A stretch of DNA of 64,000 nt from a virus, in the IMG/VR virus record IMGVR_UViG_3300020172_000530, positions 1-64,000 of that record; one strand, given 5' to 3'. Of the stretch, positions 1,220 through 59,699 are shown one piece after another. The notes under the pieces were generated by a model. The model made no database searches, was not told the DNA's origin, and saw only the letters and a program-made list of their open reading frames with translations. Every line of letters begins with the position of its first letter. Position 1 is the first letter of the stretch. Both the position numbers and the translations under genes were made by a program.

Positions 1220-1239
1220 GAACTTGGCTTGCGCTGGCC

Positions 1240-36728: not shown

Positions 36729-36738
36729 GGATTACTCA

Positions 36739-38601: not shown

Positions 38602-38604
38602 ACA

Positions 38605-38612
38605 AATAAATA
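38605..38612 (+). promoter_or_regulatory. T4-like late promoter (AATAAATA) before fibre paralogue 3
   Basis: AATAAATA at 38605-38612 lies 22 bases before the ATG at 38635. With the usual T4 late spacing, transcription would start near 38618 and keep AAGGGG in the leader. It lacks the TACGCAC box at 21 bases upstream (the sequence there is AGTAACA), so it is a plain late-type element. Confidence 0.55.
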
Positions 38613-38634
38613 TATAGAGTTAAGGGGTAATTAG

Positions 38635-40119: not shown

Positions 40120-40129
40120 CGGAAATACT

Positions 40130-41047: not shown

Positions 41048-41056
41048 GGATATGCT

Positions 41057-43279: not shown

Positions 43280-44105
43280 TAGAGGACATTTATTTTTTGC
43301 TCAGAATTCTGGAGTAGATTATGTAACACAAGCATATATCGCTGCTTTAATGATTAAAAAATTTAACAAATATAATAAAACCTGTCTAGTTACTAATGAT
43401 ACAGTACCGATGAAATATTTGAAAGCATTTGATAAGATAGAAACTATTCCATGGTCAGATGATGCTGCTCAAAGTGACTGGAAAATAGAAAATCGTTGGA
43501 AACTAATACATGTCAGTCCTTTTGATGAAACATTAGTATACGATACTGACATGTTATTATTGTCTTCAAATGATCATTGGTGGGATTATTTAAAGAGCCA
43601 AAGTGTTTCACTTACAAGCAAAGTTGTAAATTATAAAAATAATATTATTCAAGATACAGTTTACAGAAAAACTTTTATTGATAATACCTTACCTAATGTA
43701 TATTTTGGTCTTCATTTCTTTAAGAAAAATAGAAGAGCTTATGAATTTTATAAATGGTTGGAAATTATTGTTAAAAATTGGAGATTGTTTTATAATGAAC
43801 ACACTCTGAATAATACACAAAAATTTTGTAGTATGGATGTCACGGCTGCTATAGCAACAAAAATAATGAATGCTGAAGAAGAATTTTCCACAGCTAACCC
43901 GTTGACATTCGTACATATGAAATCAGCAATACAAGGATGGTACCCAGCTCCTGCTACATGGCAGTCTGCTGTAAGTGTACACTTAAATCACAAATTAGAA
44001 CTTAGAATTAATAATTTCCTTCAGCAAGGTGTATTTCATTATACAGAAGATAATTTTTTAACAGAAAACATTTTTAACACAGTAGAGGCAAGTTGTGGGA
44101 TTTAA
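43272..44105 (+). CDS. Glycosyltransferase-like protein, pair 1 member B
   Basis: A 277-residue paralogue of the preceding gene. It starts GHLFFAQNSGVDYVTQAYIAA, has CLVTND, and then VSPFDETLVYDTDMLLL, where D91-T-D93 is the DxD motif. Downstream LPNVYFGLHFFKKNRRAYEF matches the equivalent region of member A. A C-terminal AIQGWYPAPATW may form part of the acceptor site. The two genes are a clear tandem duplication with diverged specificity regions. The start overlaps the previous stop by eight bases. Confidence 0.62.
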   Translation: MSNRGHLFFAQNSGVDYVTQAYIAALMIKKFNKYNKTCLVTNDTVPMKYLKAFDKIETIPWSDDAAQSDWKIENRWKLIHVSPFDETLVYDTDMLLLSSNDHWWDYLKSQSVSLTSKVVNYKNNIIQDTVYRKTFIDNTLPNVYFGLHFFKKNRRAYEFYKWLEIIVKNWRLFYNEHTLNNTQKFCSMDVTAAIATKIMNAEEEFSTANPLTFVHMKSAIQGWYPAPATWQSAVSVHLNHKLELRINNFLQQGVFHYTEDNFLTENIFNTVEASCGI

Positions 44106-44598
44106 ATTTTTTGTATATCATGATGAAGAAGGAAACATAACATCTATTACCAATGAAAAAAGATCTACTGGAGAGTATATTGAAGCAGAAGAGTCTGAGA
44201 TATCAGATTTTCTAAATGGTGTAAAAGATTTTACCAAATTTAAAATTAATAGTTTATCATCTGGGTCAAAACAGATCAAATTAACACACGATTCCTCTGC
44301 TCTTGTATACAAGGACTTTTATATTGTTAGTAATAGTATCGAAAATGAACAAGTTATTATTACTCATAATAACAAAACTAAATCCTGGAATATAAAATTA
44401 AATGACGATGCACAACTGTTAAACTTTAGTTTTTACGTATGTAGAAAGGATAATTTAAATTTTTTAATTAGAGAAGTAACAGTGCCTCCTAAAAAAACTT
44501 TTTCGATACCGTTCTCTTATGTAGTCGAACAACAATCAGACGAACTAATTGTATTAGCAAAAAGAGTTCATGAATCTTATGGAATAAATTATGTATAA
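44095..44598 (+). CDS. Beta-rich protein of unknown function in the island
   Basis: A 167-residue protein from a GTG with AGAGG eight bases upstream. It starts MGFKFFVYHDEEGNITSITN. Most of the rest is predicted beta strand: IKLTHDSSALVYKDFYIV, then VIITHNNKTKSWNIKL and REVTVPPKKTFSIPFSYV. No Cys or catalytic motif is visible. It lies between two glycosyltransferase-like pairs with overlaps on both sides. It could be a small binding protein or virion decoration. I recognise no family. Confidence 0.6.
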   Translation: MGFKFFVYHDEEGNITSITNEKRSTGEYIEAEESEISDFLNGVKDFTKFKINSLSSGSKQIKLTHDSSALVYKDFYIVSNSIENEQVIITHNNKTKSWNIKLNDDAQLLNFSFYVCRKDNLNFLIREVTVPPKKTFSIPFSYVVEQQSDELIVLAKRVHESYGINYV

Positions 44599-45499
44599 AG
44601 TCAAAGTAGCAGATTGTGATGTGGTATATTTAAGTTATGATGAACCTAACGCAGAACAAAATTACTCTGATTTATTGACTAAAATACCTTGGGCTAAACG
44701 TGTACACGGAGTCGAGGGCAGTGATAGTGCCCATAAGGCCTGTGCTAGATTAGCAGATACAGAACGAGTCGTTATCATCGATGGTGATAATATAGTTAGA
44801 CCTGATTTAATTAACCAAGAAGTAGAGTTTTATAACGATGCCAATACTAATTGTGTGATTAGTTGGGGAGCAAGAAATATCATTAATGGTCTAGTTTATG
44901 GCAATGGCGGTGTAAAATGTTGGCCAACAGATTTGATACTTGATATGCGAACACATGAAAATGCCGAAGATACTAATACTAAGACACAAGTAGATTTTTG
45001 TTGGGATATAAATTATATCCAAATGGATACATGTATGAGCGACGTATACAATAACGGTAGTCCACAACAAGCATGGAGAGCAGGGTTTCGAGAAGGAGTG
45101 AAAATGAGTTTATTAGAAGGATCTAAACCTGTTAATGATAGACCATTTGATAGACAAATACATTGGAAAAATTTACATAGATTGTTGATCTGGATGACAG
45201 CAGGTTCTGAAATCACAAACGGACTATACGCTATATTAGGAGCAAGACAAGGGTGTTACAAAACAAATTGTACAGATTGGGATTTCACTAATGTTAGAGA
45301 TTTTAAGTATCTGAATAATCTGTATGAGGAAATTGTATCTGAAGTAAACTTAGATAAAGACATAACACGTTTAGGAATTGAAATTACATCTCGATTAAAG
45401 ATTCCTTGCCCTGCCCCATTTACTTCGGATCAGAGTATATTTTTTAAAACAGTGTATACGAATCCTCCTCGTATGAAAAATAAATCGGTTGTATCCTAA
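44591..45499 (+). CDS. Glycosyltransferase-like protein, pair 2 member A
   Basis: A 302-residue protein with VVYLSYDEPNAEQNY, IPWAKRVHGVEGSDSAHKAC and VVIIDGDNIV. D64-G-D66 is a DxD-type motif at the end of a Rossmann-like half, as in GT-2/GT-A enzymes. A further conserved block is VISWGARNIINGLVYGNGGV, and then PQQAWRAGFREGVKM. The following gene shares all four blocks, so this is a second tandem duplicate pair. The likely reaction is transfer of a sugar from a nucleotide sugar; the substrate is unknown. It overlaps both neighbours. Confidence 0.6.
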   Translation: MYKVKVADCDVVYLSYDEPNAEQNYSDLLTKIPWAKRVHGVEGSDSAHKACARLADTERVVIIDGDNIVRPDLINQEVEFYNDANTNCVISWGARNIINGLVYGNGGVKCWPTDLILDMRTHENAEDTNTKTQVDFCWDINYIQMDTCMSDVYNNGSPQQAWRAGFREGVKMSLLEGSKPVNDRPFDRQIHWKNLHRLLIWMTAGSEITNGLYAILGARQGCYKTNCTDWDFTNVRDFKYLNNLYEEIVSEVNLDKDITRLGIEITSRLKIPCPAPFTSDQSIFFKTVYTNPPRMKNKSVVS

Positions 45500-46185
45500 T
45501 GTACGATATCGCATTTATAAGCTACAAAGAACCCAATGCTGATAAAAATTGGGAGAATTTAACTAGTAGATTTCCTTGGGCAAAACGTATTAGTCGTGTA
45601 CGAGGAATACATATGGCGCACATCGCTGCCGCCAGCAAATGTTTTACAAACATGTTTTGGGTAGTAGATGGTGATGCTGAAGTTTTAGAAAGTTTTGATT
45701 TTAGTTTTACTACGAAAGAAACTAATTTCGTACATGTGTGGCGTAGTCGTAATCCTGTTAATGATTTAGAATACGGATATGGAGGTGTAAAATTACTTCC
45801 AAGATTAGCTACACTTAATATGGATACTACTAAGCCTGATATGACTACTAGTATTAGTCAACACTTCAGGCCAATGCCCGAAGTTAGTAATATTACTGCT
45901 TTTAATACAGATCCTTTCAGTGCGTGGAGAAGTGCCTTTAGAGAATGTTGTAAATTATCAAGTAAAGTGATTGATAGACAGAAAACAGACGAGACAGACC
46001 ATCGATTGTTATCGTGGAAAATTAAAGGATTAGATAGACCATATGGTGAATATGCGATTCAAGGTGCCAAGGAAGGCGAAGAGTATGGTAAATTTTACAG
46101 CGGAAATTTAGAAGCACTGTCTAAGATTAATGATTTTGGCTGGCTGAAAGAACGATTCGAAAGGAATTCTAATGGAAGAAATTGA
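45499..46185 (+). CDS. Glycosyltransferase-like protein, pair 2 member B (shorter)
   Basis: A 228-residue paralogue of the preceding protein: IAFISYKEPNADKNWENL, FPWAKRISRVRGIHMAH, FWVVDGDAEVL (D57-G-D59) and VHVWRSRNPVNDLEYGYGGV. It also shares FSAWRSAFRECCKL and EYAIQGAKEG. It lacks about 60 residues of the C-terminal part of member A. The start shares one base with the previous stop (TAATG). The shared DGD and AWRxxFRE motifs suggest the same fold and related substrates. Confidence 0.6.
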   Translation: MYDIAFISYKEPNADKNWENLTSRFPWAKRISRVRGIHMAHIAAASKCFTNMFWVVDGDAEVLESFDFSFTTKETNFVHVWRSRNPVNDLEYGYGGVKLLPRLATLNMDTTKPDMTTSISQHFRPMPEVSNITAFNTDPFSAWRSAFRECCKLSSKVIDRQKTDETDHRLLSWKIKGLDRPYGEYAIQGAKEGEEYGKFYSGNLEALSKINDFGWLKERFERNSNGRN

Positions 46186-47023
46186 TAAGAGTGCGATATC
46201 TTGGTTACATGGATTACAAGAATTTTTTAAATTTCAAAACGATGAAATTTCCAGCAATTATGTAGATTTTATTTTAAAACTACTGTATGCTAATAATCCC
46301 GCTATCACAATAACAGAAGAAGCTGATATCGTAGAATTTATTGGTACATTAAGAAAGTTTGCTGACAATAATATTTTTAACGCTTTTCACAAATATTATA
46401 GAGAAGAGCACAATCCTAAGCATTTACAAGATGCGTTCAGTAGAGGGCAAGTTCAGAGTAAAATTTGGTTAGCACACGAATTACAAAAGATTCGAACAGA
46501 GCACAAGAATGTTTTAATTTTAGCAGGGTGGTATGGACAATTGCTTCAGTATTTTAAAGAAATAAAATTTGATAAAGTAAGAATAGTAGACATGGATAAG
46601 GAAGCTTGTTTAATTAGCGACGATATTTTCAACTTACATTTAATTGAAAATTATAGAGTTAAGGCCATATGTGCTGATATAAACAATATTATCATTCGTA
46701 AATCTGGATATATGCTTAATGTTGAAAACTTTAAGAATCTAGAAGCAAAGATTTTTAGTGAAAACTTTATGCCGGATCTTATTGTTAATACATCTGCTGA
46801 ACATATGAGCGAGAAATGGTTCAATGATATACGTTTTAAGGATTTTGAAACTAAACCTCTTGTAGTAATCCAAAGTAATAATTTATTCGATGTAGAAGAG
46901 CATATTAATTGTGTTCACAGTATCGATCATATGAAAAAAAATTATCCTATGAGTGAAATTTTCTATGAAGGAGAATTACAGCTAAAAGGGTACAAACGCA
47001 TAATGCTTATTGGATTACCATGA
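46172..47023 (+). CDS. SAM-dependent methyltransferase-like protein
   Basis: A 283-residue protein. Residues 1-105 are helical. The second half is Rossmann-like: VLILAGWYGQLLQYF (about 114-128) as motif I, VRIVDMDKEACLISDD as motif II with an acidic residue for the ribose, then VKAICADINNI and PDLIVNTSAEHMSEKWF as the motif IV region. This pattern fits class I methyltransferases, although the glycine loop GWYGQ is atypical. It may methylate the island's product, or bind SAM for another purpose. It overlaps the glycosyltransferase-like gene by 14 bases and the next gene by four. Confidence 0.55.
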   Translation: MEEIDKSAISWLHGLQEFFKFQNDEISSNYVDFILKLLYANNPAITITEEADIVEFIGTLRKFADNNIFNAFHKYYREEHNPKHLQDAFSRGQVQSKIWLAHELQKIRTEHKNVLILAGWYGQLLQYFKEIKFDKVRIVDMDKEACLISDDIFNLHLIENYRVKAICADINNIIIRKSGYMLNVENFKNLEAKIFSENFMPDLIVNTSAEHMSEKWFNDIRFKDFETKPLVVIQSNNLFDVEEHINCVHSIDHMKKNYPMSEIFYEGELQLKGYKRIMLIGLP

Positions 47024-47247: not shown

Positions 47248-47336
47248 TGGAAGAAGTTGACTTATCTACTATCGCTCATAGAGAACTAGAAGGGTATATG
47301 ATATCAAAGAAAATTGGCATGCGACAATATGTATAG
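47247..47336 (+). CDS. Very short ORF (29 residues) before the first radical SAM gene
   Basis: ATG at 47247 shares a base with the preceding TAA. The 29-codon frame, which begins MEEVDLSTIAHRELEGYM and ends in Gly-Met-Arg-Gln-Tyr-Val, stops with TAG at 47336, overlapping the radical SAM start by eight bases. Both overlaps match the style of all other junctions in this gene chain, which favours translation. Without it there would be an 80-base gap in an otherwise gapless operon. It may be only a coupling ORF. No homologue can be named. Confidence 0.45.
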   Translation: MEEVDLSTIAHRELEGYMISKKIGMRQYV

Positions 47337-48501
47337 ATATAACGAAATACAAACAGTTCATTTAGAAATGACAGATAATTGTAATGCTGCCTGTCCTATG
47401 TGTGCAAGAAATATAAATGGTGGCGAAGATAATCCACAGTTGCCAAAAACTGAACTAAGCCTGGATCATTGTAAAACTATATTTGAGCCCAAGTTTATCG
47501 CACAATTAAAACGCATGTATATGTGTGGTAACTATGGAGATCCTATTGCTGCTCAAGATACACTAGAAGTATTTGATTATTTTAGACAACATAATACTAA
47601 AATGAATCTTAGTATGTACACTAATGGCAGTGCTAAAAAGACTGATTGGTGGAAACAATTAGCTCAGGTATTAGGAAAAAACAGTTATGTAGTGTTCAGT
47701 ATAGATGGGTTAGAAGACACTAATCATTTATATAGACAAAATACTGTATGGTCTAAGATAATGGAAAATGCTCAAGCATTTATTGATGCAGGTGGCAACG
47801 CCCGCTGGGATTATATTGTGTTCGCCCATAATGAACATCAAGTAGATCAAGCAGATGCTCTCAGTAAAAAAATGGGTTTTACAAAATTTCAGTATAAAAA
47901 GAGTGCAAGATTTTTTAGTAATGTTAGTGGTACTACGAAAGAGATACATCAAGCAACTAATCGTAAGGGTGTGGCTACTACTTTGTTACAGTCTCCTACA
48001 GATCCTAAGTATAGAAATAGTACTTTACAGGAGTTAAGTAAAATTGCTAGTGATAATGTTACCGAAGTGAAATTTTTGCCTAGTACTGCTAAAGACGCTG
48101 AATTACTACTAGGTAAACAGGTGTTTAGTTTCGATTTTAATAAAAAGAAAGAAATGGAAAAATATTGGGATTCGGTAGAAATTAAATGCAAAGTAGCAGA
48201 AGAAAAGTCAGTTTATATTAGCGCAGAAGGCATAGTTCAACCTTGTTGTTGGACAGCAGGTCAAATGTATGTGTGGTATTGGGAACCGTTAGGCGGCCAA
48301 ATTTGGAAAGCAATTAATGAAGTGGGTAAAGATAATTTAAACGCCAAATATCACAGATTAGAAGATATAATTGACGGACGTTATTTTACTGAAGTTGTTC
48401 CAGAAAGTTGGAAAAAATCAAGTTGTGCTGATGGGAAATTAGCTGTCTGTGCTAAAACCTGCGGTGCTAAATATGATGCCTTTAGTGCCCAGTTCAAATG
48501 A
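47329..48501 (+). CDS. Radical SAM protein 1 (class A: C-terminal extra cysteines)
   Basis: A 390-residue protein from the ATG at 47329; an in-frame TTG at 47314 is an alternative. The core CNAACPMC (C18, C22, C25) is the CX3CX2C site for the SAM-cleaving [4Fe-4S] cluster. The usual GGE strand is replaced by CGNYGDPIAA. Later motifs SMYTNGS and VFSIDGLEDTNHLYRQN are typical of the barrel. The C-terminal 110 residues hold VQPCCWTAG, SSCADG and AVCAKTCG, a SPASM-like region that could bind one or two auxiliary clusters. The next gene is the same class. Substrate unknown. Confidence 0.85.
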   Translation: MYRYNEIQTVHLEMTDNCNAACPMCARNINGGEDNPQLPKTELSLDHCKTIFEPKFIAQLKRMYMCGNYGDPIAAQDTLEVFDYFRQHNTKMNLSMYTNGSAKKTDWWKQLAQVLGKNSYVVFSIDGLEDTNHLYRQNTVWSKIMENAQAFIDAGGNARWDYIVFAHNEHQVDQADALSKKMGFTKFQYKKSARFFSNVSGTTKEIHQATNRKGVATTLLQSPTDPKYRNSTLQELSKIASDNVTEVKFLPSTAKDAELLLGKQVFSFDFNKKKEMEKYWDSVEIKCKVAEEKSVYISAEGIVQPCCWTAGQMYVWYWEPLGGQIWKAINEVGKDNLNAKYHRLEDIIDGRYFTEVVPESWKKSSCADGKLAVCAKTCGAKYDAFSAQFK

Positions 48502-49574
48502 ATATAGATAATATTAAAAAAGTAGAATTAGAAATTACCAGTAATTGTAATGCTGCTTGTCCTGGTTGCGCACGAACACAAAATTCTGATATCTTAGAAA
48601 TACATAGTTTTGGATTAGAAGACCTAGTACGGATGTTCCCTACTCCAAGACATATACAAGGTAAAGAATTTAAATTCTGCGGTGTATTAGGCGATCCTAT
48701 TGCTAATAAAGAATGTTATGATATGATAGAATATCTAGTTAGTAATAATGGGTATTGTCAAATTAGCACTAATGGTGGATTAAATTCAACAATCTGGTGG
48801 AGTAAACTAGGAGAGCTAAGTAAGAAAACTAATTTAGTCGATGTTAATTTCTGTGTTGATGGACATAAGGAAACTAACCATATCTATCGAGTTAATACAC
48901 TGTTCAGTGTTATAGAAAAGAATATGGCAGCTTATTCCCAGGCACAAGGACAAGCTACGTGGATTTACATAGTATTTGATCATAACGAGCACGAATTAAC
49001 AACAGCACAGCATCATGCTGAACAATTAGGTTTCAAATTTGCCACAAGAACAGGTATGAGAAATAGTTATCATAACTGGGTAGCAGAAATTAGAAATAAA
49101 GATAAAACCAAAGAACAAGTGGTAATTACTACAACAGGTAGTAAAGAACATAGTAAGAAAAATTTAGTAAAAGATCTAGATAAGTTTATTTCAACGTATA
49201 ATAAAGGAATGTTTATGCTTCCTATAGTTGATAAAAAGCAAGAAATACTGAATTCAATTACTTGTAAGTTAGTTCACGAAGGCGAAATCTTTATTGCTAG
49301 TAATCAAACCATGTGGCCCTGTTGTTTTTTATGGGATAGCATGTTTAAAAATAAAGAAAGTATTGTAGAAAAATTAAATGAATACAGCGAAGGATGGAAC
49401 AGTTTACGCAATTACACTATTGATGAAGTGTTAGCTCATCCGTGGTTTGATCATATACTCGCTGAAAGTTGGAATCCCGCTCACGCTAAACATTTTATAA
49501 GATGTATTAGAACTTGCGCATATAACAAAGCATATCAAAATGAAATCAATTATGTCAATAAAGAAACTACCTAG
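48498..49574 (+). CDS. Radical SAM protein 2 (class A: C-terminal extra cysteines)
   Basis: A 358-residue paralogue of protein 1. The cluster motif is CNAACPGC (C17, C21, C24), and the GGE position again reads GVLGDPIAN. VNFCVDGHKETNHIYRVN parallels the equivalent block of protein 1, as does WIYIVFDHNEHEL (protein 1 has DYIVFAHNEHQV). The C-terminal region has TCKLV, MWPCCFLW and IRCIRTCAYN as likely auxiliary-cluster ligands. It overlaps protein 1 by ATGA and protein 3 by about 20-35 bases, depending on the start of protein 3. Confidence 0.85.
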   Translation: MNIDNIKKVELEITSNCNAACPGCARTQNSDILEIHSFGLEDLVRMFPTPRHIQGKEFKFCGVLGDPIANKECYDMIEYLVSNNGYCQISTNGGLNSTIWWSKLGELSKKTNLVDVNFCVDGHKETNHIYRVNTLFSVIEKNMAAYSQAQGQATWIYIVFDHNEHELTTAQHHAEQLGFKFATRTGMRNSYHNWVAEIRNKDKTKEQVVITTTGSKEHSKKNLVKDLDKFISTYNKGMFMLPIVDKKQEILNSITCKLVHEGEIFIASNQTMWPCCFLWDSMFKNKESIVEKLNEYSEGWNSLRNYTIDEVLAHPWFDHILAESWNPAHAKHFIRCIRTCAYNKAYQNEINYVNKETT

Positions 49575-50958
49575 CAAAACATTTTGTATTTTACCTTGGG
49601 TACATTTAAGCACACGGCCAGACGGCAGTATGCGAGTATGTTGTACAGCCAATGCTAGTAGCGTAGGTCCTACTAACGATAAACAGCATGGAGGGATGGT
49701 AGGAGTATTAAAAACAGATGAAGGAAAGCCCAGTAATCTGAATGTCAGTGATTTCTTAAGTAGTTGGAATAGCGATTACATGCGTAATGTTCGTAAACAG
49801 ATGCTGAATGGTGAGCAGCCTCCAAGTTGTACTAAGTGCTACAAAGAAGAAGCCGCAGGGCACAATAGTAAACGGATGTGGGAAACTGCTTATTGGGCTG
49901 ATCGTGTTGATCTGGACAAGCTAATTGCTGACACTGCTGAAGATGGATCTGTACCACCCCAATTAAATTATATTGATTTGCGGTTTGGAACTAAATGCCA
50001 ACTCGCTTGTGTTATGTGTAGTCCTCATGATAGTTCAGGATGGATTAAAGATTGGCAAGCAATATATCCTCAGATACAAAATAGCAGCTTAAAGGAAACA
50101 TCTCAATGGTCAAATAAAGGCAGCACTAATGGCAGTAGTTATAATTGGCACAAAAATAATCCTGTGTTTTGGAAACAGTTCAATGAACAAATTCCTAATA
50201 TGCAACAGTTATACTTTGCCGGTGGAGAGAGCTTAATTATCGAAGAGCATTACGAAATATTGGAGGAAGCAATAAGGCAAGGACATGCTAAGAATTTAGA
50301 ATTGCGTTATAATAGTAATGGAGTAGAATGGCGTGATGATCTGTTTGAATTGTGGAAAGAATTTAAATTAGTGCGTTTTCACTATAGTGTGGACAGTATT
50401 GAAGAAATGAACAGCTATATTCGTTACCCAAGCGAATGGGAAAGAACACATGAAGTATTTCATATATTAGATAAAGCAACACCACCGAATACAGAAATTA
50501 CTGTTGCTTGTGCCGTTCAGGCGTTAAACGTATATTATTTGCCAGACTTTTTAAAATGGAAGCTTAATCAAAATTTTAAAAAAGTAAACATGTGGCCACT
50601 AGGCGCAGGGGGAATTAACTATCACTTTGTGTATCATCCTCCGCACCTAAATGTTAAAGTTCTTCCAAAATGGTTCAAAGAAAAATGTAGACAAAAATAT
50701 GAAGAATTTTATCCATGGTGGGAAGCTAATTGGCAGAAAGGTATTCCTGCTTCTAAAACAGATCAAGTAACTTATGATATGTGGCGTGATGCTAGTTACG
50801 GTATTAATAGATTAGAAGGTATGCTACAATTTATGGAAAGCGAAGATTGGAGCATACGATTGCCCGAACTAAAAGAATATATTCAGTTGATTGATAATCA
50901 AAGGGGATTAAACTTTGCTGAAACATTTCCTGAAATGAAGGATATTTTCGATGAGTAA
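49540..50958 (+). CDS. Radical SAM protein 3 (class B: N-terminal twitch-like domain)
   Basis: A 472-residue protein. The N-terminal domain has FCILPWVHL with C16, then MRVCCTAN (C34, C35) and later SCTKCYKEE. These Cys residues could hold an auxiliary cluster in a twitch-like domain placed before the barrel. The core CX3CX2C, CQLACVMC, lies near 152-159. Barrel motifs include YFAGGESLIIEEHYEILEE (GGE) and FHYSVDSIEEMNSYIRYP. A WPLGAGGINYHFVYHPPHL block in the C-terminal part has a counterpart in protein 5. The start at 49540 or 49552 is uncertain; neither has a good Shine-Dalgarno. N-terminal-twitch radical SAM families are known from marine phages, without established substrates. Confidence 0.88.
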   Translation: MKSIMSIKKLPSKTFCILPWVHLSTRPDGSMRVCCTANASSVGPTNDKQHGGMVGVLKTDEGKPSNLNVSDFLSSWNSDYMRNVRKQMLNGEQPPSCTKCYKEEAAGHNSKRMWETAYWADRVDLDKLIADTAEDGSVPPQLNYIDLRFGTKCQLACVMCSPHDSSGWIKDWQAIYPQIQNSSLKETSQWSNKGSTNGSSYNWHKNNPVFWKQFNEQIPNMQQLYFAGGESLIIEEHYEILEEAIRQGHAKNLELRYNSNGVEWRDDLFELWKEFKLVRFHYSVDSIEEMNSYIRYPSEWERTHEVFHILDKATPPNTEITVACAVQALNVYYLPDFLKWKLNQNFKKVNMWPLGAGGINYHFVYHPPHLNVKVLPKWFKEKCRQKYEEFYPWWEANWQKGIPASKTDQVTYDMWRDASYGINRLEGMLQFMESEDWSIRLPELKEYIQLIDNQRGLNFAETFPEMKDIFDE

Positions 50959-52288
50959 AAAAATAGCCTGTTGGTACACATTAGGTGGACTAAATTATAA
51001 AAATGGATTTGCTACTTCTTGTCCGCAGCAAAGCGATAAACTCCATATTATGGAAGGCACTCAGATAATTAAACCTTCTGAAATTATCAATTCAGAAGGA
51101 TTCAGGAAACATCGATTAGATATGATGTCCGGTAAATGGAGTCCTGGGTGCCACTTATGTAAAAATGTAGAAGAAGCTAAAGCAGGTAATAGTATGCGTA
51201 TGGACTACCCAGTAGACGAAACTAATTACGATGATTTAACTGGTGCGATAGATTTTAACGGACTTACTCATGTAGAGTTTAGATTTAGTAACGCCTGTAA
51301 TATGGCATGCCTGCACTGTAGTGAAGTGTTTAGTAGCGGCTGGATGGCAAAACTCAAACACTATGAACCTGACAAAGATGATTGGAATCACAGACTTATA
51401 CAATTGACCAAAACTATGCATCGTGCCGGATTTAACGACACGTTAAGCATAGATATGAGTCTCGAAGACATGTATAAGATTGTAGACGATTTGAACACGA
51501 ATTTTCTTAATCTACAAAAAATCGACTTTACTGGTGGCGAAGTATTATATCAGAAACAGTTTATACCTTGTCTAAAAGCATTAGCTAAACATCCACATGC
51601 TGAAAACATACACATTAGTTTCCATACTAATTTTAATGCTAAATTTGATCCAGAAGAGTTATCAAAAGCACTTGAACCTTTTCGATATGTGACTATCATG
51701 ATGAGCATTGATTCTGGAACTAACATTTATAGTTATTTTAGAACAGGTGATTGGAACGTGTTAACAGACAACATTAGAAGATTTAAAATAGCAAACACGA
51801 GTAAAAACGTTGATCTTAATGTTGTCTGTACAACCAGTGTTTATCAAATGATGGATATTGAAAATGTATTTGAAAGTTTTTTAAATTTAGATATAGACTG
51901 GATTGATAGTTCTATTGTTTATACTCCAGATTATCTAAATCCTGCTATTTTAATGTTTGATTATAAAGATTATGTTATTCAGGATATTAAAAATACATAC
52001 AGTATGATTGATAGAGTGAAACAAGAACGTATGGATAATTTTGAAGAAAGTCAAAAAATGCGTACTTGGCGTAAAGGTAAGGAGATATTTCAAGATATAG
52101 AAAGTGCTTATAGAGCATTAAAAGGCATTGAGGACTATGTGATAAATCATAAACCGCAATATAAACACTGGGAAGCCTTTATGGTATATGTTAGAAAAAC
52201 AGATGAAATATGGCAACAAGATTTTAATACTCATTTTGAAAATTACAAATTTTTAGATTATAAAGTTCTAAGAAAGGAGATGTTATGA
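50951..52288 (+). CDS. Radical SAM protein 4 (class B, diverged N-terminal domain)
   Basis: A 445-residue member. Its N-terminus has ACWYTLGGLNYKNG and TSCPQQSD instead of the CC pair, followed by GCHLCKNVEEAKAGNSMR, so one of the usual ligands differs. The core is CNMACLHC near residue 116. The barrel has DFTGGEVLYQKQFIPCLKAL and IHISFHTNFNAK. It is the most diverged of the five class B proteins and may have a distinct N-terminal cluster or none. It overlaps protein 3 by eight bases and the PP-loop gene by four. Confidence 0.85.
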   Translation: MSKKIACWYTLGGLNYKNGFATSCPQQSDKLHIMEGTQIIKPSEIINSEGFRKHRLDMMSGKWSPGCHLCKNVEEAKAGNSMRMDYPVDETNYDDLTGAIDFNGLTHVEFRFSNACNMACLHCSEVFSSGWMAKLKHYEPDKDDWNHRLIQLTKTMHRAGFNDTLSIDMSLEDMYKIVDDLNTNFLNLQKIDFTGGEVLYQKQFIPCLKALAKHPHAENIHISFHTNFNAKFDPEELSKALEPFRYVTIMMSIDSGTNIYSYFRTGDWNVLTDNIRRFKIANTSKNVDLNVVCTTSVYQMMDIENVFESFLNLDIDWIDSSIVYTPDYLNPAILMFDYKDYVIQDIKNTYSMIDRVKQERMDNFEESQKMRTWRKGKEIFQDIESAYRALKGIEDYVINHKPQYKHWEAFMVYVRKTDEIWQQDFNTHFENYKFLDYKVLRKEML

Positions 52289-53142
52289 AATTTAGAGATA
52301 ACAACGCAATTTATGAACAGTTAGATACTAACAGTGGAATAGAACTATTTAGATTTAACGGGTTGGACATTCCATTCAATCCAACTTGGAGAAAGATAGG
52401 TATCAATCTTAGTGGGGGTGCTGATAGTAGTTGCCTACTAACATTATTATGTAATATTATTACAAGGAATAAATTACGTTGTGTAATACATGTGATTAGT
52501 CATGTTCGTTGTTATAACACTAGACCTTGGCAAGGACCAATCGCGCTTGATGTCTTTGAAAAATTTGTTAAAGATTATTATCCTAGTATTCATTTTATAA
52601 GACACACTAATTTTATACCACCAGAATTAGAATGGGGAGCCATTGGTCCTATAACACATGATGAAGACGGTCGCCCTAGAAGTGGTGATCAAATCTGTGT
52701 CGGAAGTTTTAACAACTATATTATACATAAAGAAAAATTAGACGTAGTTTATAATGCTACTAGTGCCAATCCTCAAGGAAGTAATTGGGTCGGAGGAATG
52801 GCTAATAGGGAAAAGCCTGCTAGTGAAGGCGTTCTTAAAGATTTAGTAATGAGCAAAGAAGGACACACAATTTGTCATCCTTTTAGATTCGTAGATAAGT
52901 CTTATATTTTGGCTCAGTATCATTTATTTGACAAACTTGATCTTTATAATATGACACGCAGTTGTGAAGGCGATATTAACGATCCAAAAATTAAAGAAAT
53001 AGTACCGACGCTGCAAGCCTATGATTCAGTTGACCATACGGTAGATACTTTACCTAAGTGTGGGCATTGCTGGTGGTGTAAAGAAAGAGATTGGGCGGAA
53101 AGTGTAGTCGATCAAGTAGTGGAAGAATTAAGAAATGCTTGA
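52285..53142 (+). CDS. QueC-like PP-loop ATPase with zinc-binding cysteines
   Basis: A 285-residue adenine nucleotide alpha-hydrolase. The PP-loop INLSGGADSSCLLTLL (SGGADSS at 43-49) binds ATP for adenylation of a substrate carboxyl or carbonyl group. C227 (in TRSCEGD) and C259, C262, C265 (CGHCWWCKERDW) form a C...CxxCxxC set with Arg, like the zinc site of QueC (preQ0 synthase). QueC turns carboxy-deazaguanine into the nitrile using ammonia. This protein is longer (QueC about 230) and no queD, queE or queF is seen nearby. It may amidate or activate another acid in the pathway. It is embedded between radical SAM genes with overlaps on both sides. Fold assignment is firm; substrate is unknown. 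Confidence 0.78.
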   Translation: MKFRDNNAIYEQLDTNSGIELFRFNGLDIPFNPTWRKIGINLSGGADSSCLLTLLCNIITRNKLRCVIHVISHVRCYNTRPWQGPIALDVFEKFVKDYYPSIHFIRHTNFIPPELEWGAIGPITHDEDGRPRSGDQICVGSFNNYIIHKEKLDVVYNATSANPQGSNWVGGMANREKPASEGVLKDLVMSKEGHTICHPFRFVDKSYILAQYHLFDKLDLYNMTRSCEGDINDPKIKEIVPTLQAYDSVDHTVDTLPKCGHCWWCKERDWAESVVDQVVEELRNA

Positions 53143-54436
53143 TACATTCTGTCCTATTCCTTGGATATTTCAAGCAGTAAGAGCCAACGGAGATATCCGT
53201 GTTTGTTGTCAGGCTAACGTGACTAAGAATCAAGGAGTAATCAGAAAGCTAGATGGTTCAGCTTATAATGCTGGGCAAGATACATTAGAAGATAGCAGAA
53301 ACGCAGAGATGATGAAAGCAATTCGTCTTAACATGCTGAACGGTGTGTGGAGTGAAGAATGCGGCCGTTGTAAAAAAGAAGAGGAAACTGGGTTAGTGAG
53401 TCGTAGGACTTATGAAAATCAACAATGGAAATTTACTATAGATGAAGCACGAGCTAAGACAGCAGAAGATGGTAGTATAGCAGATGTTCCTATCATTTAT
53501 TATGATTTAAGATTTGGTAATTTTTGTAATTTAAAATGTCGTATGTGTGGCCCAACAGATAGTAGTGCTTGGTACGATGATTGGATTAAACTCACAGGCA
53601 GCAACAAATTTAAAGACACATCAGGAGAAGTATCTATACTAGAAAATTCTAAAGGATACTATGCCACAGAGTTTGATTGGCCTAACTATGAACCATTTTG
53701 GCAGCAACTGGAGTCAAACGCACATAACATTCAGCATGTATATTTTGCTGGCGGTGAACCTATGCTTATAGAACGTCACTACGATTTTTTGGAAAGATGT
53801 ATTGAACAAAATGTTGCTAAAAATATAATTATTGAGTATAATACTAATATGAGTACCTTACCCGCTCGAGTGACTAACTTATGGAAAAGTTTTAAACAAG
53901 TTCGAGTTGGCGCGAGTGTAGACGGAATGGATAAGATGCAGGAATATCAACGTTATCCTGCTAAATGGCAAAAGACTTTAGATAATTTGCGCAAAGTCGA
54001 TGAACTACCTGATAATATTATTGCTTGGTTAGCCTTTACTGTTACTGCTTACAATATTAATCATATGATTGATTTTATGAAATGGAAGTTACAATTAAGT
54101 GGATTTAAAAAAATTAATAGTACAAATAGAAGACCAATAATCACACATCATGTCGCTCATCATCCTAAACATTTAAATGTCAGAGTGTTGCCCGACGAAT
54201 ATAAAAAAGAGCTTACTGAAAAATTTTATGAATTTTTAGAATGGGTTAAAAATAACCACCCAAGTGTTATTATACAAGCTACAGATATAGTAAATGGTGT
54301 AGTGAATTATATGAATAGCGAAAGTTATTACAAAGAATATTGGAACGAGTTTTTAAGTTATACTAAAAAATTAGATGATATTAGACAAGAAAGTATAGCT
54401 GATGTAGAACCAAAGTTTAAGGAATACATAAAGTGA
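53135..54436 (+). CDS. Radical SAM protein 5 (class B: N-terminal twitch-like domain)
   Basis: A 433-residue paralogue of protein 3. It starts FCPIPWIFQAVRANGDIRVC (ending at the CC pair) and then has ECGRCKKEEETGLVSRRTYE. The core CNLKCRMC lies near residue 130. Shared barrel blocks are YFAGGEPMLIERHYDFLERC and GASVDGMDKMQEYQRYPAKW, and a late THHVAHHPKHLNVRVLP block with its counterpart in protein 3. The strong likeness to protein 3 suggests a recent duplication. It overlaps the PP-loop gene by eight bases and protein 6 by four. Confidence 0.9.
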   Translation: MLDTFCPIPWIFQAVRANGDIRVCCQANVTKNQGVIRKLDGSAYNAGQDTLEDSRNAEMMKAIRLNMLNGVWSEECGRCKKEEETGLVSRRTYENQQWKFTIDEARAKTAEDGSIADVPIIYYDLRFGNFCNLKCRMCGPTDSSAWYDDWIKLTGSNKFKDTSGEVSILENSKGYYATEFDWPNYEPFWQQLESNAHNIQHVYFAGGEPMLIERHYDFLERCIEQNVAKNIIIEYNTNMSTLPARVTNLWKSFKQVRVGASVDGMDKMQEYQRYPAKWQKTLDNLRKVDELPDNIIAWLAFTVTAYNINHMIDFMKWKLQLSGFKKINSTNRRPIITHHVAHHPKHLNVRVLPDEYKKELTEKFYEFLEWVKNNHPSVIIQATDIVNGVVNYMNSESYYKEYWNEFLSYTKKLDDIRQESIADVEPKFKEYIK

Positions 54437-55641
54437 GTTTTGATACAGTAGATTTGTTAGACGGCAATGTATTCCAAGTTACCTGGGATTTAGGACGTAG
54501 ATGTAACTATGATTGTAGTTATTGTCCTAGTCACAGACATGATAATTTTAGTCCCCATGCTAGTTTGGAAACATTAAAAGCAAATGTAGATTTTTTGTAC
54601 AAGTATATTGATTTGTATATGAATCATAGACACTTCAAAGAAACTAGTATTAGTTTTACTGGCGGAGAGCCTACTGTTAATCCTAATTTCATCCCATTCA
54701 TAAAATACCTAAAAGAACAATATCAAGAAAAATACCAAAGTAAGTGGAGAGCGGGATTTGCTTTGACAAGTAACGGTGCGATGAGTTCCAAAATGGCTGA
54801 CTCTGTTATGGAGCATATGGATCATATTACTATCAGTTATCATACTGAAGCAGATAATAAACTGAAAAAACAAGTAGTTGATCGTATCGAACAGTTTAGC
54901 AAGTATGGATCAGAACGAAATTGTACTATAAGCATCAATGTGATGTTTCACGCAGGATATTTTGAAGAGTGTCAAGATCTTTGTGCTTATTTTGATGCCA
55001 ACGGTATTAAATATGTTCCCCGTGTTATAGGCGAAGAGCCCGACAGTCGTAGTAATTTTGCTCATCAATATTCGGAGCATCAACTAATATGGATGAAGGA
55101 TTACTGGAAGAATAACACAGATAAGATTAATAATCCTAGTGTGGAAGAAGTACGACAAAATACAGATTTTGGAATCAGTGCTGCTACAGAAGATAGTTCA
55201 ACACCACAGAAACAATTAGGATTAACAATTGGACGTCCTTGTTGTGGTAGTCGTACTATGTGTTTAAGTAATCAAAGTGAAAGTCGTAAGAGTAAGTTTG
55301 TAGATCTAAGAGAATTTAAAGGATGGCACTGTAGCGTTAACTGGTTCTTTATGCATATTGAACAACAAACAGACAGTGTATTTCATCATCAAACTTGCCA
55401 AGCACAGTTCGGACAAACACGAGGCCCTATTGGTAAGTTAAGCGAAAGCGATAAGATTTTAGAAAATTTAGAACGTAATTTACGTGAACAAACTATGCCT
55501 ACAATCATTTGTCCTAAACATACATGTGGATGCGGCCTATGTGCTCCTAAGAGTAAATTTGAGGAAAAGTATAAAACTGTGTTGTTTAATCATGTTGACA
55601 AAACTGTTTTTAAAAATACATTGCTAAATGAAAAACAGTAA
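54433..55641 (+). CDS. Radical SAM protein 6 (class C: CNYxCSYC core, C-terminal cysteines)
   Basis: A 402-residue protein with a GTG start. The core CNYDCSYC (C24, C28, C31) is very near the N-terminus; there is no N-terminal domain. The barrel has ISFTGGEPTVNPNFIPFI and the variant HITISYHTEADNK. The C-terminal 150 residues have RPCCGSRTMC, GWHCSVNWFFMHIEQ, HHQTCQAQ and CPKHTCGCGLC, probable ligands for auxiliary clusters. The same GWxCS block occurs in protein 9, its only class C partner. It overlaps both neighbours (four and 14 bases). Confidence 0.88.
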   Translation: MSFDTVDLLDGNVFQVTWDLGRRCNYDCSYCPSHRHDNFSPHASLETLKANVDFLYKYIDLYMNHRHFKETSISFTGGEPTVNPNFIPFIKYLKEQYQEKYQSKWRAGFALTSNGAMSSKMADSVMEHMDHITISYHTEADNKLKKQVVDRIEQFSKYGSERNCTISINVMFHAGYFEECQDLCAYFDANGIKYVPRVIGEEPDSRSNFAHQYSEHQLIWMKDYWKNNTDKINNPSVEEVRQNTDFGISAATEDSSTPQKQLGLTIGRPCCGSRTMCLSNQSESRKSKFVDLREFKGWHCSVNWFFMHIEQQTDSVFHHQTCQAQFGQTRGPIGKLSESDKILENLERNLREQTMPTIICPKHTCGCGLCAPKSKFEEKYKTVLFNHVDKTVFKNTLLNEKQ

Positions 55642-56860
55642 CACATATTGTCTTCAACCCTTTAGGGAAATAACTATAAAAGATTTCACCGGCGACAAGC
55701 TAAAAACATTCTGGCCTTGTTGTATGATGGCTAATCAAATTACGGAAAATCGAGACACCAATGTTTTAGAAATTAAAAATGCTAATGAGCTAACTCCGCA
55801 AGAAATGTATGATCATCCGAGGATGGTATTATTAAGAAACAATTTGCTGAATGGTATTAAAGATTCTGCTTGTGAAGTTTGCTGGCACCAAGAAGAAAGA
55901 GGTCTCAAATCGTTTAGGCAATTTAATAATGAAAATTCAAGCGTTCACTCCGACGACGGATTGTCTAGCATTGATATAACTGCTTCTAATATATGTAATC
56001 TAAGATGTCGAATGTGTACTCCTACGAGTAGCCATCAATTAATGATAGATCATCAATTCTTCGAACAGAATCAGTTATTGGATAAAGTTAAATCTGTTAC
56101 TAAGAGATGGGGTATTTTAAATAAAGCATATAAGACAACGGAATCTGTTCAATGGAAATGGATGCTAGAAAATACCGATAAAATTAAATTGCTAAAGGCC
56201 AGCGGCGGCGAGCCATTTTACGACAATAAGATTGTTAAACTTCTTGAAAAATATATAGAAACAGATAACGCAAAAAATACTATATTAAGTTTTCACACTA
56301 ATGCTACACTATTTGACGATAACATGATCAATATATTAAATCAATTTAAAATGAATGACCATGTGTTTAGTGTAGACGGTGTTGGAAAAACTTATGAATA
56401 CATAAGGTATCCTGCTACGTTTGATCAACTTGAAAACAGTGTAATTAAATATTTGAAAAATGTTCGAAATTATAAAACTCCGATACAATTTACAGTAATT
56501 GTTTCTGCTCAAAATTTATTAATTTTAAATCAATATATAGAATGGACACGATCACTTCCAGCTATCACATCGCCTCATTTTTCAGAAATATATGATCTTA
56601 ATCGTGGGATTGCTATAAAGCATTTACCTAAAAAACTTTTACTTCAAGCTAAAACAAATTTAGAAAAATACACATTGAATTTAAACAATCATTCTGATTT
56701 TGAGGTAGAAAGTTTAATAAAGTCGATTGATAATGCAATTGCTGAAAATGCTGAAAATAAACAATTAGTCAAGGAGGAATGTCAATTGTTCGACTTATCT
56801 AGAAATCAATCTTACAGAAGTTATCTTCATCCTGATTTAGTAAATTGGCTAGACTCATGA
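55628..56860 (+). CDS. Radical SAM protein 7 (class B: N-terminal twitch-like domain)
   Basis: A 410-residue class B protein. The N-terminal domain has YCLQPFREITIKDFTGDKL, FWPCCMMAN and SACEVCWHQEERGLKSFRQF. The core CNLRCRMC lies near residue 123. The barrel has LLKASGGEPFYDNKIVKLLE and HVFSVDGVGKTYEYIRYPA. It lacks the HHPKHLNV block of proteins 3 and 5, so the substrate side differs. It is followed by a small SDR whose ATG overlaps its stop (ATGA). Confidence 0.88.
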   Translation: MKNSNTYCLQPFREITIKDFTGDKLKTFWPCCMMANQITENRDTNVLEIKNANELTPQEMYDHPRMVLLRNNLLNGIKDSACEVCWHQEERGLKSFRQFNNENSSVHSDDGLSSIDITASNICNLRCRMCTPTSSHQLMIDHQFFEQNQLLDKVKSVTKRWGILNKAYKTTESVQWKWMLENTDKIKLLKASGGEPFYDNKIVKLLEKYIETDNAKNTILSFHTNATLFDDNMINILNQFKMNDHVFSVDGVGKTYEYIRYPATFDQLENSVIKYLKNVRNYKTPIQFTVIVSAQNLLILNQYIEWTRSLPAITSPHFSEIYDLNRGIAIKHLPKKLLLQAKTNLEKYTLNLNNHSDFEVESLIKSIDNAIAENAENKQLVKEECQLFDLSRNQSYRSYLHPDLVNWLDS

Positions 56861-57426
56861 AAGTATTAATTACCGGAAATAAAAATTTTGGGATTGCTAA
56901 AGAGCTATTCCAGTTGTATCCAGATGCTACCTTTGTAAGCAAGACTGCAGGAGTTGATTTGACTACACAAACAGGACACACTCACTGCGCTGAATTATGT
57001 CTAGAACATGATATCTTTATTAATTGTGCTGCTTTATGGAAATTTAATCAAACAGTTCTTTTAGAAACAGTTTATAAGGCCTGTATTAATGTTAATCATG
57101 ATATACATATCATAAATGTAGGAAGCACTACAGACAGAGTCAAAAATGGAAAATCATGGTTATATAATGCTGAGAAAAAAGCATTAAGAGATTATTCCAA
57201 CACTTTAGGAATAGCAGGTGTATGGGACAAAGGACCGAAAGTCAGTTATATAAGTTTTGGAACATTAAGTAATAATCAGGACAAGCATCCTGACAGACGA
57301 ACGATGGATATAAATTTAGCAGCACAGTATATCAAATGGATCATAGATCAGCCTAAAGAAATCAACATCAACGAACTTAGTGTAGATCCTTTACAGAATG
57401 AAAGGTGGTATAAAAATGAGTCTTGA
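56857..57426 (+). CDS. Small SDR/epimerase-like NAD(P)-binding protein
   Basis: A 189-residue protein, taking the ATG at 56857 that overlaps the previous stop (ATGA); a TTG four codons earlier is less likely. The N-terminus MKVLITGNKNFGIAKELF is an SDR-type Rossmann loop with slightly irregular glycine spacing. IINVGS supplies a candidate catalytic Ser (S90), and WLYNAEKKAL contains Y103-x3-K107. The protein is shorter than classic SDRs (about 250), so the substrate domain is reduced. It may reduce, oxidise or epimerise a nucleotide sugar or the island's intermediate. It is flanked by two class B radical SAM genes. Confidence 0.72.
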   Translation: MKVLITGNKNFGIAKELFQLYPDATFVSKTAGVDLTTQTGHTHCAELCLEHDIFINCAALWKFNQTVLLETVYKACINVNHDIHIINVGSTTDRVKNGKSWLYNAEKKALRDYSNTLGIAGVWDKGPKVSYISFGTLSNNQDKHPDRRTMDINLAAQYIKWIIDQPKEININELSVDPLQNERWYKNES

Positions 57427-58534
57427 AAATGTAATCTGTCCTTTACCATGGCATCATATCGCTATAAGACCTAACGGTAGAGTATATCCGTGTTGTTATT
57501 TTAGACATGAAGATACTCCCGAAGAGTTTAATCTATCTCATACAGATGTGTTTAATCATCCATTCTTATTAGATGTCAGAGAACAAATTAAAAATGGTAA
57601 TCCTGTATCTGGATGTAAACAATGTTATCAGAATGAAAAAACTTCTGGAAGAAGTATGAGATTAGAGTCCTTAGAAAACTCAAAAGAAATTACAGGAAAA
57701 CCTTTTACTATTCCAGATCAGCCAACTCTAATTTATATTGATTTAGCACTAAGTAACGTATGTAACAATAGATGTAGAATGTGTGGTCCTGAGCTTAGTA
57801 CTAATTGGTATCCGGATGCCAAGGCTTTAGGAATACCAATAAACAAAGGTATTATAGAAAATAAAGATCCAGTGGAAAAGATAGATCTTTCTCGATTACA
57901 ATATTTAAAATTAATAGGCGGTGAGCCTATGTTAGAACAAGAAAAATTTATCAAAATTCTTGAACGTTGTGATTTACCACAGTTGTCAATATTTCTTGCT
58001 ACTAATGTTACTACAAGGCCTAATGATGATCTAATGAAATTATTTAGACGTTGTAAACAAGTAAAAATTGCCTGTAGTATTGATGCTTACGGAAAATTAA
58101 ATGACTTCCTACGTAAAGGCAGTGTATGGGAAGAGATAGATAACAATTTAAGATGGTATTCTAACAATTTTGAAGTTGTGATGATTCACTCTGTTATCAG
58201 TATCTACAATATAAATCAAATAGAGCTATTGTTAAAATATGTTAAAGACGAATATCCAAATGTTCATTTTCAATTTGTAATGGTAGATGGTCCTGATTGG
58301 ATGCGTCCTTCTAATCTACCAGTTGAAATTAAAGATAAAATAATGAAACGAATTAACAAATTAGATTATGAAGAAATAATAGAGCTGAGAGGGTTAGTAT
58401 ATGATCATATTGCCATGCAAGGAAATTTTGCCAAGTTTAAAGAAATGGACGATAAATTAAACCAATTAAGAAATGAACATTGGAAAGATTCTAATCCAGA
58501 ACTGTACGAAATGTTAAAAAAATATTATGAGTGA
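57416..58534 (+). CDS. Radical SAM protein 8 (class B: N-terminal twitch-like domain)
   Basis: A 372-residue protein from the ATG at 57416, with AAAGGTGG upstream; an ATG six codons earlier is less likely. It begins with ICPLPWHHIAIRPNGRVYPC, then the CC pair and SGCKQCYQNEKTSGRSMRLE. The core CNNRCRMC lies near residue 116. The barrel has LIGGEPMLEQEKFIKILERC and KIACSIDAYGKLNDFLRKG. It overlaps the SDR by 11 bases and protein 9 by eight. It is the shortest class B member. Confidence 0.9.
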   Translation: MSLENVICPLPWHHIAIRPNGRVYPCCYFRHEDTPEEFNLSHTDVFNHPFLLDVREQIKNGNPVSGCKQCYQNEKTSGRSMRLESLENSKEITGKPFTIPDQPTLIYIDLALSNVCNNRCRMCGPELSTNWYPDAKALGIPINKGIIENKDPVEKIDLSRLQYLKLIGGEPMLEQEKFIKILERCDLPQLSIFLATNVTTRPNDDLMKLFRRCKQVKIACSIDAYGKLNDFLRKGSVWEEIDNNLRWYSNNFEVVMIHSVISIYNINQIELLLKYVKDEYPNVHFQFVMVDGPDWMRPSNLPVEIKDKIMKRINKLDYEEIIELRGLVYDHIAMQGNFAKFKEMDDKLNQLRNEHWKDSNPELYEMLKKYYE

Positions 58535-59699
58535 TCTAAAGAAAAGCAGCTATGATTTTACCAAAGTTCCTTACGACGATATCGTTCGTGTTGGACAGCG
58601 TACCATGCTGTACAAAGACATGTTCACTGTAAGTTGGTTGCTTGGCAGGTATTGTAATTATCGCTGTAGTTACTGTTGGCCATACGCTCGTAGTGATAGT
58701 AAGGACCATAGACCTACAGAACTATGTCTGAAAACTATCGACGAAATAAAACGTCAAGCAAGAGAACGGAATTTTAATAGTTTTCATTTTAGCCTAAGTG
58801 GAGGCGAACCTACTTTTCATCCTGGATATATAGATATTTTATCTCATCTCAATAGTGACGTAGAGAATACTAATTACACTAGCGTTCATATGACTAGTAA
58901 TATGAGTAGATCTGTAGAATGGTTTGAAACTAAGTATTGTCCGGCAGTGAACAAATTCCATAGAGCTAGTATAACAGCCAGTCTACACACAGAACATGTA
59001 AACACTAAAGAAAAAATGCAGGACTTTGCAGACAAACTTATGCTTTGTCAAAAGTATGATGTACAGGTAACTATCAATATGGTTATGGTACCAGAATGGT
59101 TTGATAAGGATTATGATAATGCATTATTTTTTCATGAACAAGGTATCAATGTTACATTAAAACCACAGAGCGATCCTACAGCTAGTTTTGTTGTTGACGG
59201 GTATACTTCTGAAATGTTAGAAAAATTACACAATGGTATGCCACAAAGAGCGTTTACAGAAAGTAAAGCACAGTTATACAATCTTGTAAAAAGACCAGAA
59301 CCAAAATTTTACAAAACACCAGATCCAATTTATAAAGAAGAAAATTCTACAGTCCCGCAACATTTTCAAGTTGAATTTGTAGACAAGAATAAAAAAGTAT
59401 GGTATATGGATCAAGCAGAACGATTTAATGCTTTTAATTTTAATAAATTCCAAGGTTGGGAATGTTCAAGCGGGTATCGTAGTATCATTATACGCGAGCC
59501 GGATGGTAGTATAAAACGTAGTTATAGTTGTTATGATGTTCCTTTAGGTAATATCGAAACAGGATTTCAACTGTTCGATGGACCAAAAACTTGTATTAGT
59601 CCAAGTTGTGTAAGCAGTGCCGATAGTAAGATTCCTAAACGTGCTCCTGGTACAGATCTGCCCTTGTGGCCAGGTGATAACACTTTTAAATCAGATTAG
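58527..59699 (+). CDS. Radical SAM protein 9 (class C: CNYxCSYC core, C-terminal cysteines)
   Basis: A 390-residue paralogue of protein 6. The core CNYRCSYC is at C43, C47, C50, and the barrel has FSLSGGEPTFHPGYIDILSH and ASITASLHTEHVN. The C-terminal region has GWECSSGYRSIIIREPDG, SYSCYDVPLG and TCISPSCVSSAD, similar in layout to the GWHCS region of protein 6. It ends the island; its last nine bases overlap the stop of the convergent gene. No terminator is visible between the two convergent genes. Confidence 0.88.
   Translation: MSDLKKSSYDFTKVPYDDIVRVGQRTMLYKDMFTVSWLLGRYCNYRCSYCWPYARSDSKDHRPTELCLKTIDEIKRQARERNFNSFHFSLSGGEPTFHPGYIDILSHLNSDVENTNYTSVHMTSNMSRSVEWFETKYCPAVNKFHRASITASLHTEHVNTKEKMQDFADKLMLCQKYDVQVTINMVMVPEWFDKDYDNALFFHEQGINVTLKPQSDPTASFVVDGYTSEMLEKLHNGMPQRAFTESKAQLYNLVKRPEPKFYKTPDPIYKEENSTVPQHFQVEFVDKNKKVWYMDQAERFNAFNFNKFQGWECSSGYRSIIIREPDGSIKRSYSCYDVPLGNIETGFQLFDGPKTCISPSCVSSADSKIPKRAPGTDLPLWPGDNTFKSD

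Follow-up and report, generated by a model that had tools for sequence, protein, structure and literature searches.

The virus record IMGVR_UViG_3300020172_000530 of IMG/VR (76,689 bases, of which the first 64,000 were analysed here and are called the window) carries nine radical S-adenosylmethionine (rSAM) genes among eleven consecutive genes at 47329-59699, with a PP-loop ATPase gene and a short-chain dehydrogenase/reductase (SDR) gene between them. Radical SAM enzymes perform chemistry that is open to few other enzymes, and biosynthetic clusters usually contain one to three of them. The array forms part of a cassette that is real, selected, modular and widely shared: a near-constant core, comprising glycosyltransferase (GT) and methyltransferase-like (MT) genes, a small conserved protein that we call s75, and rSAM enzymes A and C, is accompanied by exchangeable tailoring enzymes. 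We propose, at a probability of roughly 0.4, that a T4-like phage holds in its host-recognition region a modular set of biosynthetic genes, and that these yield a glycosyl conjugate which radical enzymes rework and which is probably displayed on the virion or cell surface.

The nine radical SAM proteins

With the genes upstream of it, the array makes one nearly gapless row at 44591-59699, in the order GT3, GT4, MT, s75, A, B, C, D, PP-loop, E, F, G, SDR, H, I, every gene lying on the + strand (Table 1). An initial annotation of this DNA had described nine CX3CX2C proteins in a row, interrupted only by the PP-loop ATPase and a small SDR. This arrangement holds: all nine open reading frames (ORFs) are full length and in frame, and each protein contains one CX3CX2C motif. 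Adjoining genes overlap throughout, as had been noted, though by 4 to ~35 bases rather than by a few. Alternative starts exist for A (47314, TTG, or 47329, ATG), C (49540 or 49552) and H (57398 or 57416).

All nine proteins match the Pfam Radical_SAM model (PF04055) at E<1e-4 and seven exceed its curated cut-off, with A barely under it (29.4 vs 29.5 bits) and B clearly so (23.2). The curated cut-off of NCBIfam NF033640 (N_Twi_rSAM, twitch domain-containing radical SAM protein; 170 bits) is reached by C (418.9 bits), E (392), H (257.7), G (222.6) and D (201.3), and conserved cysteines in the pattern C...C(C)...CxxC mark the N-terminal region of all five; A (49.3), I (37.2), B (33.3) and F (25.9) fall short of it. 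NF033640 is a sequence family only, and no described pathway was found for it.

Judged from their sequences, the rSAM enzymes are distinct and still intact, and purifying selection on them is strong. The CX3CX2C motif is retained in 688 of 689 relatives longer than 300 residues, and the predicted auxiliary-cluster cysteines (SPASM/twitch type) are near-invariant in all nine families; the loss of cluster cysteines from close relatives, which the initial annotation had named as evidence against a common pathway, is thus not seen. Ratios of nonsynonymous to synonymous substitution rates (dN/dS) for the cassette genes are 0.02-0.13 against two related loci (L010 and L011) where dS could be estimated, although dS is high and the ratios are therefore rough.

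In a tree of 65 rSAM domains, built quickly from short and divergent sequences, a branch sets every one of the nine families apart; A groups with B, C with E, and F with I, and bacterial sequences fall inside families A, B, C, E, F and I. Since each family is separate in this tree and bacterial members lie within, the nine are old paralogues and not recent duplicates. Such a tree and NCBIfam calls had been suggested at the outset, and they resolve nine separate old families, five of them in NF033640. So many homologous genes side by side might suggest tandem duplicates that have accumulated without a common role. This is hardly credible, as the families split before phage and bacteria diverged, their cysteines are intact and dN/dS lies at 0.02-0.13; recent tandem duplication is rejected by the tree and by selection. 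Nor is the array a product of chance, given nine rSAM genes among eleven consecutive ones and the recurrence of these families, for the most part in matching order, in dozens of further viral contigs.

Core and exchangeable genes across viral loci

Related viral contigs were chosen by means of four different genes (E, PP-loop, s75 and C), and gene presence was counted for 43 loci that had been selected through C and had a full 9 kb on either side; genes more than 9 kb away are missed, so that absences are upper bounds. Besides C, which is 70-91% identical in viral contigs, these loci contain A (41), MT (38), GT4 (35), s75 (31), I (28), E (26), F (24), B (20), the PP-loop gene (17), SDR (16), D (12), H (11) and G (4). 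The number of rSAM ORFs per locus ranges from 4 to 12 (median 9), and whole records of the phage group give 0 to 22 Radical_SAM matches, commonly 6-16.

The PP-loop gene and B occur together in 17 loci, B alone in 3 and neither in 23, while the PP-loop gene is never found without B. Furthermore, H is always accompanied by both and D lacks the PP-loop gene only once, whereas E, I and SDR are not associated with B. Fisher p-values for this covariation ignore relatedness. The cassette thus consists of a near-constant core (GT, MT, s75, A and C) and a tailoring set in which B, PP-loop, D and H form a co-varying block and F, E, I, G and SDR are separate. One fixed nine-step pathway is rejected by the pattern of presence and absence. 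The proposal of a single long dedicated pathway is therefore only partly supported: A, C, MT, GT4 and s75 are near-constant and the block co-varies, but the independent variation that had been named as evidence against it is found for E, I and SDR. Of the PP-loop and SDR genes, whose co-occurrence the initial annotation had suggested surveying, the former is tied to B and the latter is not. The constant core constitutes a small, testable set.

The PP-loop protein was originally called QueC-like. It carries the conserved motifs SGGADS and TRSCEGD..CGxCWWCxER, and its structural model (predicted local distance difference test, pLDDT, 89) is nearest to TilS, NcsA/TtuA, YcfA and NAD synthetase. 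It shares the N-type ATP pyrophosphatase fold of QueC, TilS, NcsA and YcfA, but has no above-cut-off sequence-model match to any of them. Its likeness to QueC is limited to the cysteine motif (CGxCxxCxxR); neither PF06508 nor TIGR00364 matches, QueC is not among the nearest structures listed, and the QueC assignment was rejected. This bears on the idea that the cassette supports a 7-deazaguanine-type DNA modification with FolE, QueE and the PP-loop protein in the place of QueC. The record does encode FolE (72152-72919, -) and, as its tenth rSAM protein, a QueE-like one (69866-70714, -), both given in record positions outside the window. However, the PP-loop protein co-varies with rSAM B, eight further rSAM proteins would be left without a role, and no QueC was recognised among the record genes looked at. 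We regard this modification as very improbable, and rejected it for want of a QueC match. The SDR shows a weak adh_short match, and its bacterial homologue matches adh_short_C2.

Table 1. Coordinates of the cassette genes and their upstream neighbours in the window.
Feature	Position	Strand	Remarks
Tail-fibre and virion structural genes	34596..42034	+	Directly upstream of cassette; PHROG tail/collar fibre matches for most
GT1 (provisional label)	42443..43279	+	No Pfam or PHROG match; with GT2/GT3 in closest relatives
GT2 (provisional label)	43272..44105	+	Weak match to phrog_1903 (unknown function); position conserved
GT3, GT-A-like glycosyltransferase	44591..45499	+	Paralogue of GT4; DxD motif (DGDN); weak Pfam family-2 GT match
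GT4, GT-A-fold glycosyltransferase	45499..46185	+	AlphaFold2 (AF2) model, pLDDT 93; top Foldseek PDB matches are glycosyltransferases
MT, putative SAM-methyltransferase-like protein	46172..47023	+	Labelled by eye from sequence alone
s75, conserved protein of 75 amino acids	47020..47247	+	Between MT and A; candidate carrier or precursor
rSAM A (core)	47329..48501	+	CX3CX2C and C-terminal auxiliary-cluster cysteines
rSAM B	48498..49574	+	Sister family of A
rSAM C (core)	49540..50958	+	N-terminal twitch and rSAM; best-conserved of all cassette genes
rSAM D	50951..52288	+	N-terminal twitch; nearly always with PP-loop
PP-loop N-type ATP pyrophosphatase	52285..53142	+	Conserved four-cysteine motif; motifs and model; not QueC
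rSAM E	53135..54436	+	N-terminal twitch; sister family of C (tree)
rSAM F	54433..55641	+	Cysteine-rich C-terminal region; groups with I
rSAM G	55628..56860	+	N-terminal twitch; rare among relatives
SDR-like protein	56857..57426	+	TGxxxxGI and YxxxK motifs
rSAM H	57398..58534	+	N-terminal twitch
rSAM I	58527..59699	+	C-terminal cysteines; Bdellovibrionota orthologues adjoin C and A

Viral relatives, bacterial counterparts and published mentions

Relatives of the cassette are found on hundreds of viral contigs from aquatic environments, typically with 4-12 rSAM genes per locus, intact metal sites and signs of strong selection. In a distant phage group (L102-L152) PP-loop, C, A, I, MT and GT are kept, and E and F are weakly related. 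Cultured phages yielded no orthologue of C, PP-loop, I, GT4 or s75 among 50,697 phage records, where the sole matches to C are two Vibrio phages (~22% identity); a distant relative of C was also matched in one single-cell marine virus record (26% identity).

Orthologues of C are additionally found in metagenome-assembled genomes (MAGs) of the Bdellovibrionota, at 59-65% identity in most matches and on contigs of up to 936 kb. An orthologue at E below 1e-120 is present in 15 of 291 genomes sampled from this phylum. The bacterial core comprises GT, MT, A, C, I and some of E, F and B, and one genome holds homologues of A, B, C, E, F, I, PP-loop, SDR, GT4 and MT together with several H-like rSAM genes within 38 kb. 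Eight Bdellovibrionota genomes were checked for a T4 portal and none has one, so we regard these copies as chromosomal. They extend the initial annotation, as do s75 and the link to the upstream GT genes, and offer a bacterial system, in predatory bacteria, in which the same product might be sought.

That marine phages of the T4-like kind carry several radical SAM genes is already published and is not new. Twelve have been reported in the T4-like marine TARA_ERS488813_N000010 (PMC5332604), in a passage that treats Fe-S supply and does not deal with cluster anatomy, a core, a small protein or a bacterial counterpart. In pelagimyophages, radical SAM cassettes have been placed with glycosyltransferases in a hypervariable host-recognition (tail-fibre) cluster (PMC7029224), where they are named just as added cassettes, without analysis. 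Our literature search found no published account of the cluster itself, and no described pathway with this gene set. The description of the locus as an undescribed system, following no recognisable pathway, accordingly stands for the cluster, with the reservation that such genes in phages of this kind are mentioned by two papers.

Several further arrays and neighbours were observed. A second, different rSAM array of ~30 kb with ~10 or more N-twitch-like genes occurs in a Bdellovibrionota MAG (L154/L155, G003:C1:743000-781000). Short proteins with Tat-like N-terminal signals, recognised by eye, stand beside the bacterial cassette (L061, 945-1352; L066, 8122-8595). Amidinotransferase-like proteins, also identified by eye, recur near phage and Bdellovibrionota rSAM clusters (L155, 7166-8242; L142, 5868-6938; L108, 11054-12268), and those scanned match no family model. 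A contig titled as a Chloroflexi MAG (L070, PAAV01000055.1) combines a dense rSAM array with a T4 portal and is likely, from its gene content, to be a misbinned phage contig.

The small protein s75 and the possible product

s75 was noticed as an open translation in the supposed leader before A, and its ORF overlaps MT by 4 bases. It directly precedes A, or I in three loci (L031, L074 and L080). Relatives occur at 67 of the loci examined and are 50-88% identical across 30 aligned sequences, with 20 invariant residues; dN/dS is ~0.06 against the closest relative. A separate scan by s75 alone gave 458 viral relatives, 80 of which were kept for neighbourhood analysis. MT or GT lies directly upstream in 78 of the 80, and a cassette rSAM gene is found within 6 kb in all but one, the exception being cut by the contig end. 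s75 is thus essentially restricted to such clusters. It belongs to no Pfam or NCBIfam family, and three low E-values in a PDB search fell on engineered repeat proteins and were taken as spurious. At one locus (L019), a fusion of s75 into MT was considered and rejected.

According to the mechanism that we favour, GT-A enzymes and MT would build a glycosyl unit on an acceptor or transfer it there. The first radical steps would then fall to A and C, both of which would use an auxiliary cluster as well as the [4Fe-4S] cluster that cleaves SAM, and the PP-loop enzyme might adenylate a carboxyl or carbonyl group for the addition of nitrogen or sulphur. The remaining rSAM enzymes and the SDR could finish the product by epimerisation, dehydrogenation, C-C or C-S bond formation or similar steps, and different tailoring sets would give different surface variants. 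In this lineage s75 is a candidate carrier or protein substrate.

The part played by glycosyl transfer in this mechanism draws on GT4, whose model matches glycosyltransferases, and on ORF fusions of GT3 with GT4 (L213) and of GT3, GT4 and MT (L239 and L234). The nearest solved structures to GT4 are the fucosyltransferase WrtF, polypeptide GalNAc-transferases and ArnC, and the model supports the GT-A fold class, not a substrate. The D-x-D motif is invariant in a GT alignment that includes GT3. The cassette occupies the tail-fibre region of a T4-like phage, with tail-fibre genes directly upstream, as in the pelagimyophage host-recognition cluster. Because the array continues from these genes on the same strand, its product is probably made late and displayed on the virion or cell surface, and display is also probable from the gene content. 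Were the product to sit on virions or host surfaces, it would represent a new layer of phage-host recognition.

Several points weigh against this proposal. The substrate and product of the cassette are still hypothetical, and late expression and surface display, which we consider probable, are read from position only. Template modelling scores of the GT4 matches in Foldseek are only ~0.4, and no family was found for MT, GT1 or GT2. A relatedness-controlled test of the PP-loop/B association, which goes in the same direction in every differing pair, has only 5 independent pairs (p ~0.06). Finally, s75 is absent from the distant phage group, from Bdellovibrionota and from 12 of the 43 C-selected loci, and searches of ORFs and with a hidden Markov model detected neither s75 nor any comparable conserved small ORF in the bacterial or distant phage clusters. 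As the core is present in these cases, s75 is not needed for core chemistry.

The same absences, with A and C remaining, count against a pathway for a ribosomally synthesised and post-translationally modified peptide (RiPP). Here s75 would be a precursor, on which A and C start, other rSAM enzymes and GTs act, and from which a short tailored peptide or cofactor is released. In the biosynthesis of pyrroloquinoline quinone (PQQ), a small conserved peptide, PqqA, is likewise encoded beside an rSAM/SPASM enzyme, PqqE. s75 is small, co-encoded directly before A or I, conserved and essentially cluster-confined; the A, B and N-twitch families carry auxiliary cysteines of the SPASM/twitch type, as peptide-modifying enzymes do, and the rSAM proteins weakly match many peptide maturases. 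However, the PQQ system has one rSAM enzyme against nine here, s75 matches no model, and its 30 aligned relatives are conserved throughout, with no pattern of leader and variable core. No PqqD or RRE domain was matched in the scanned proteins (Pfam, NCBIfam), nor was a peptidase or transporter recognised in the cassette. We therefore consider a RiPP-like pathway doubtful.

It is possible, though unlikely, that s75 serves instead as a ribosomally made scaffold, which the two core rSAM enzymes, GTs and exchangeable rSAM enzymes would turn into a heavily remodelled glycopeptide on virions. This would amount to a multi-radical maturation system for a protein, with an enzyme core common to predatory bacteria. 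We found no description of such multi-radical protein maturation for any virus; the number of rSAM genes here reaches 22 in a single viral record.

A sugar-only pathway assigns s75 a smaller part, that of a mere accessory subunit. The rSAM enzymes would remodel sugars, in the manner of BtrN, DesII and AprD4, and the GTs would add them to lipopolysaccharide or a fibre. GTs are nearly always nearby, the Bdellovibrionota versions keep GT, MT, A, C and I without s75, and a DegT aminotransferase and a UDP-sugar dehydrogenase are neighbours in the record. The latter two, however, lie outside the operon, and no rSAM protein has an above-cut-off match to sugar-active rSAM models; we hold this pathway to be improbable.

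With respect to the surroundings, the T4 late-promoter motif TATAAATA was not found on the + strand upstream of the array, a sigma-70 promoter scan performed no better than on shuffled sequence, and the 64-kb window contains no tRNAs. The genes at 59691-61052 and 44095-44598 have no family match. T4-like genes to the left of the array encode baseplate hub and wedge, tail-fibre and collar-fibre families and SbcC/SbcD-like proteins, and an ORF of 5169 residues (15281-30790, +) stands directly behind the baseplate wedge genes. The DegT/DnrJ aminotransferase match (61049-61696, -) spans just 215 residues and has homologues in the two closest relatives. Additionally, this phage genome contains a Polynucleobacter-1 RNA (Rfam RF01718) at 1097-1239 (-), with a score of 106.8 bits.

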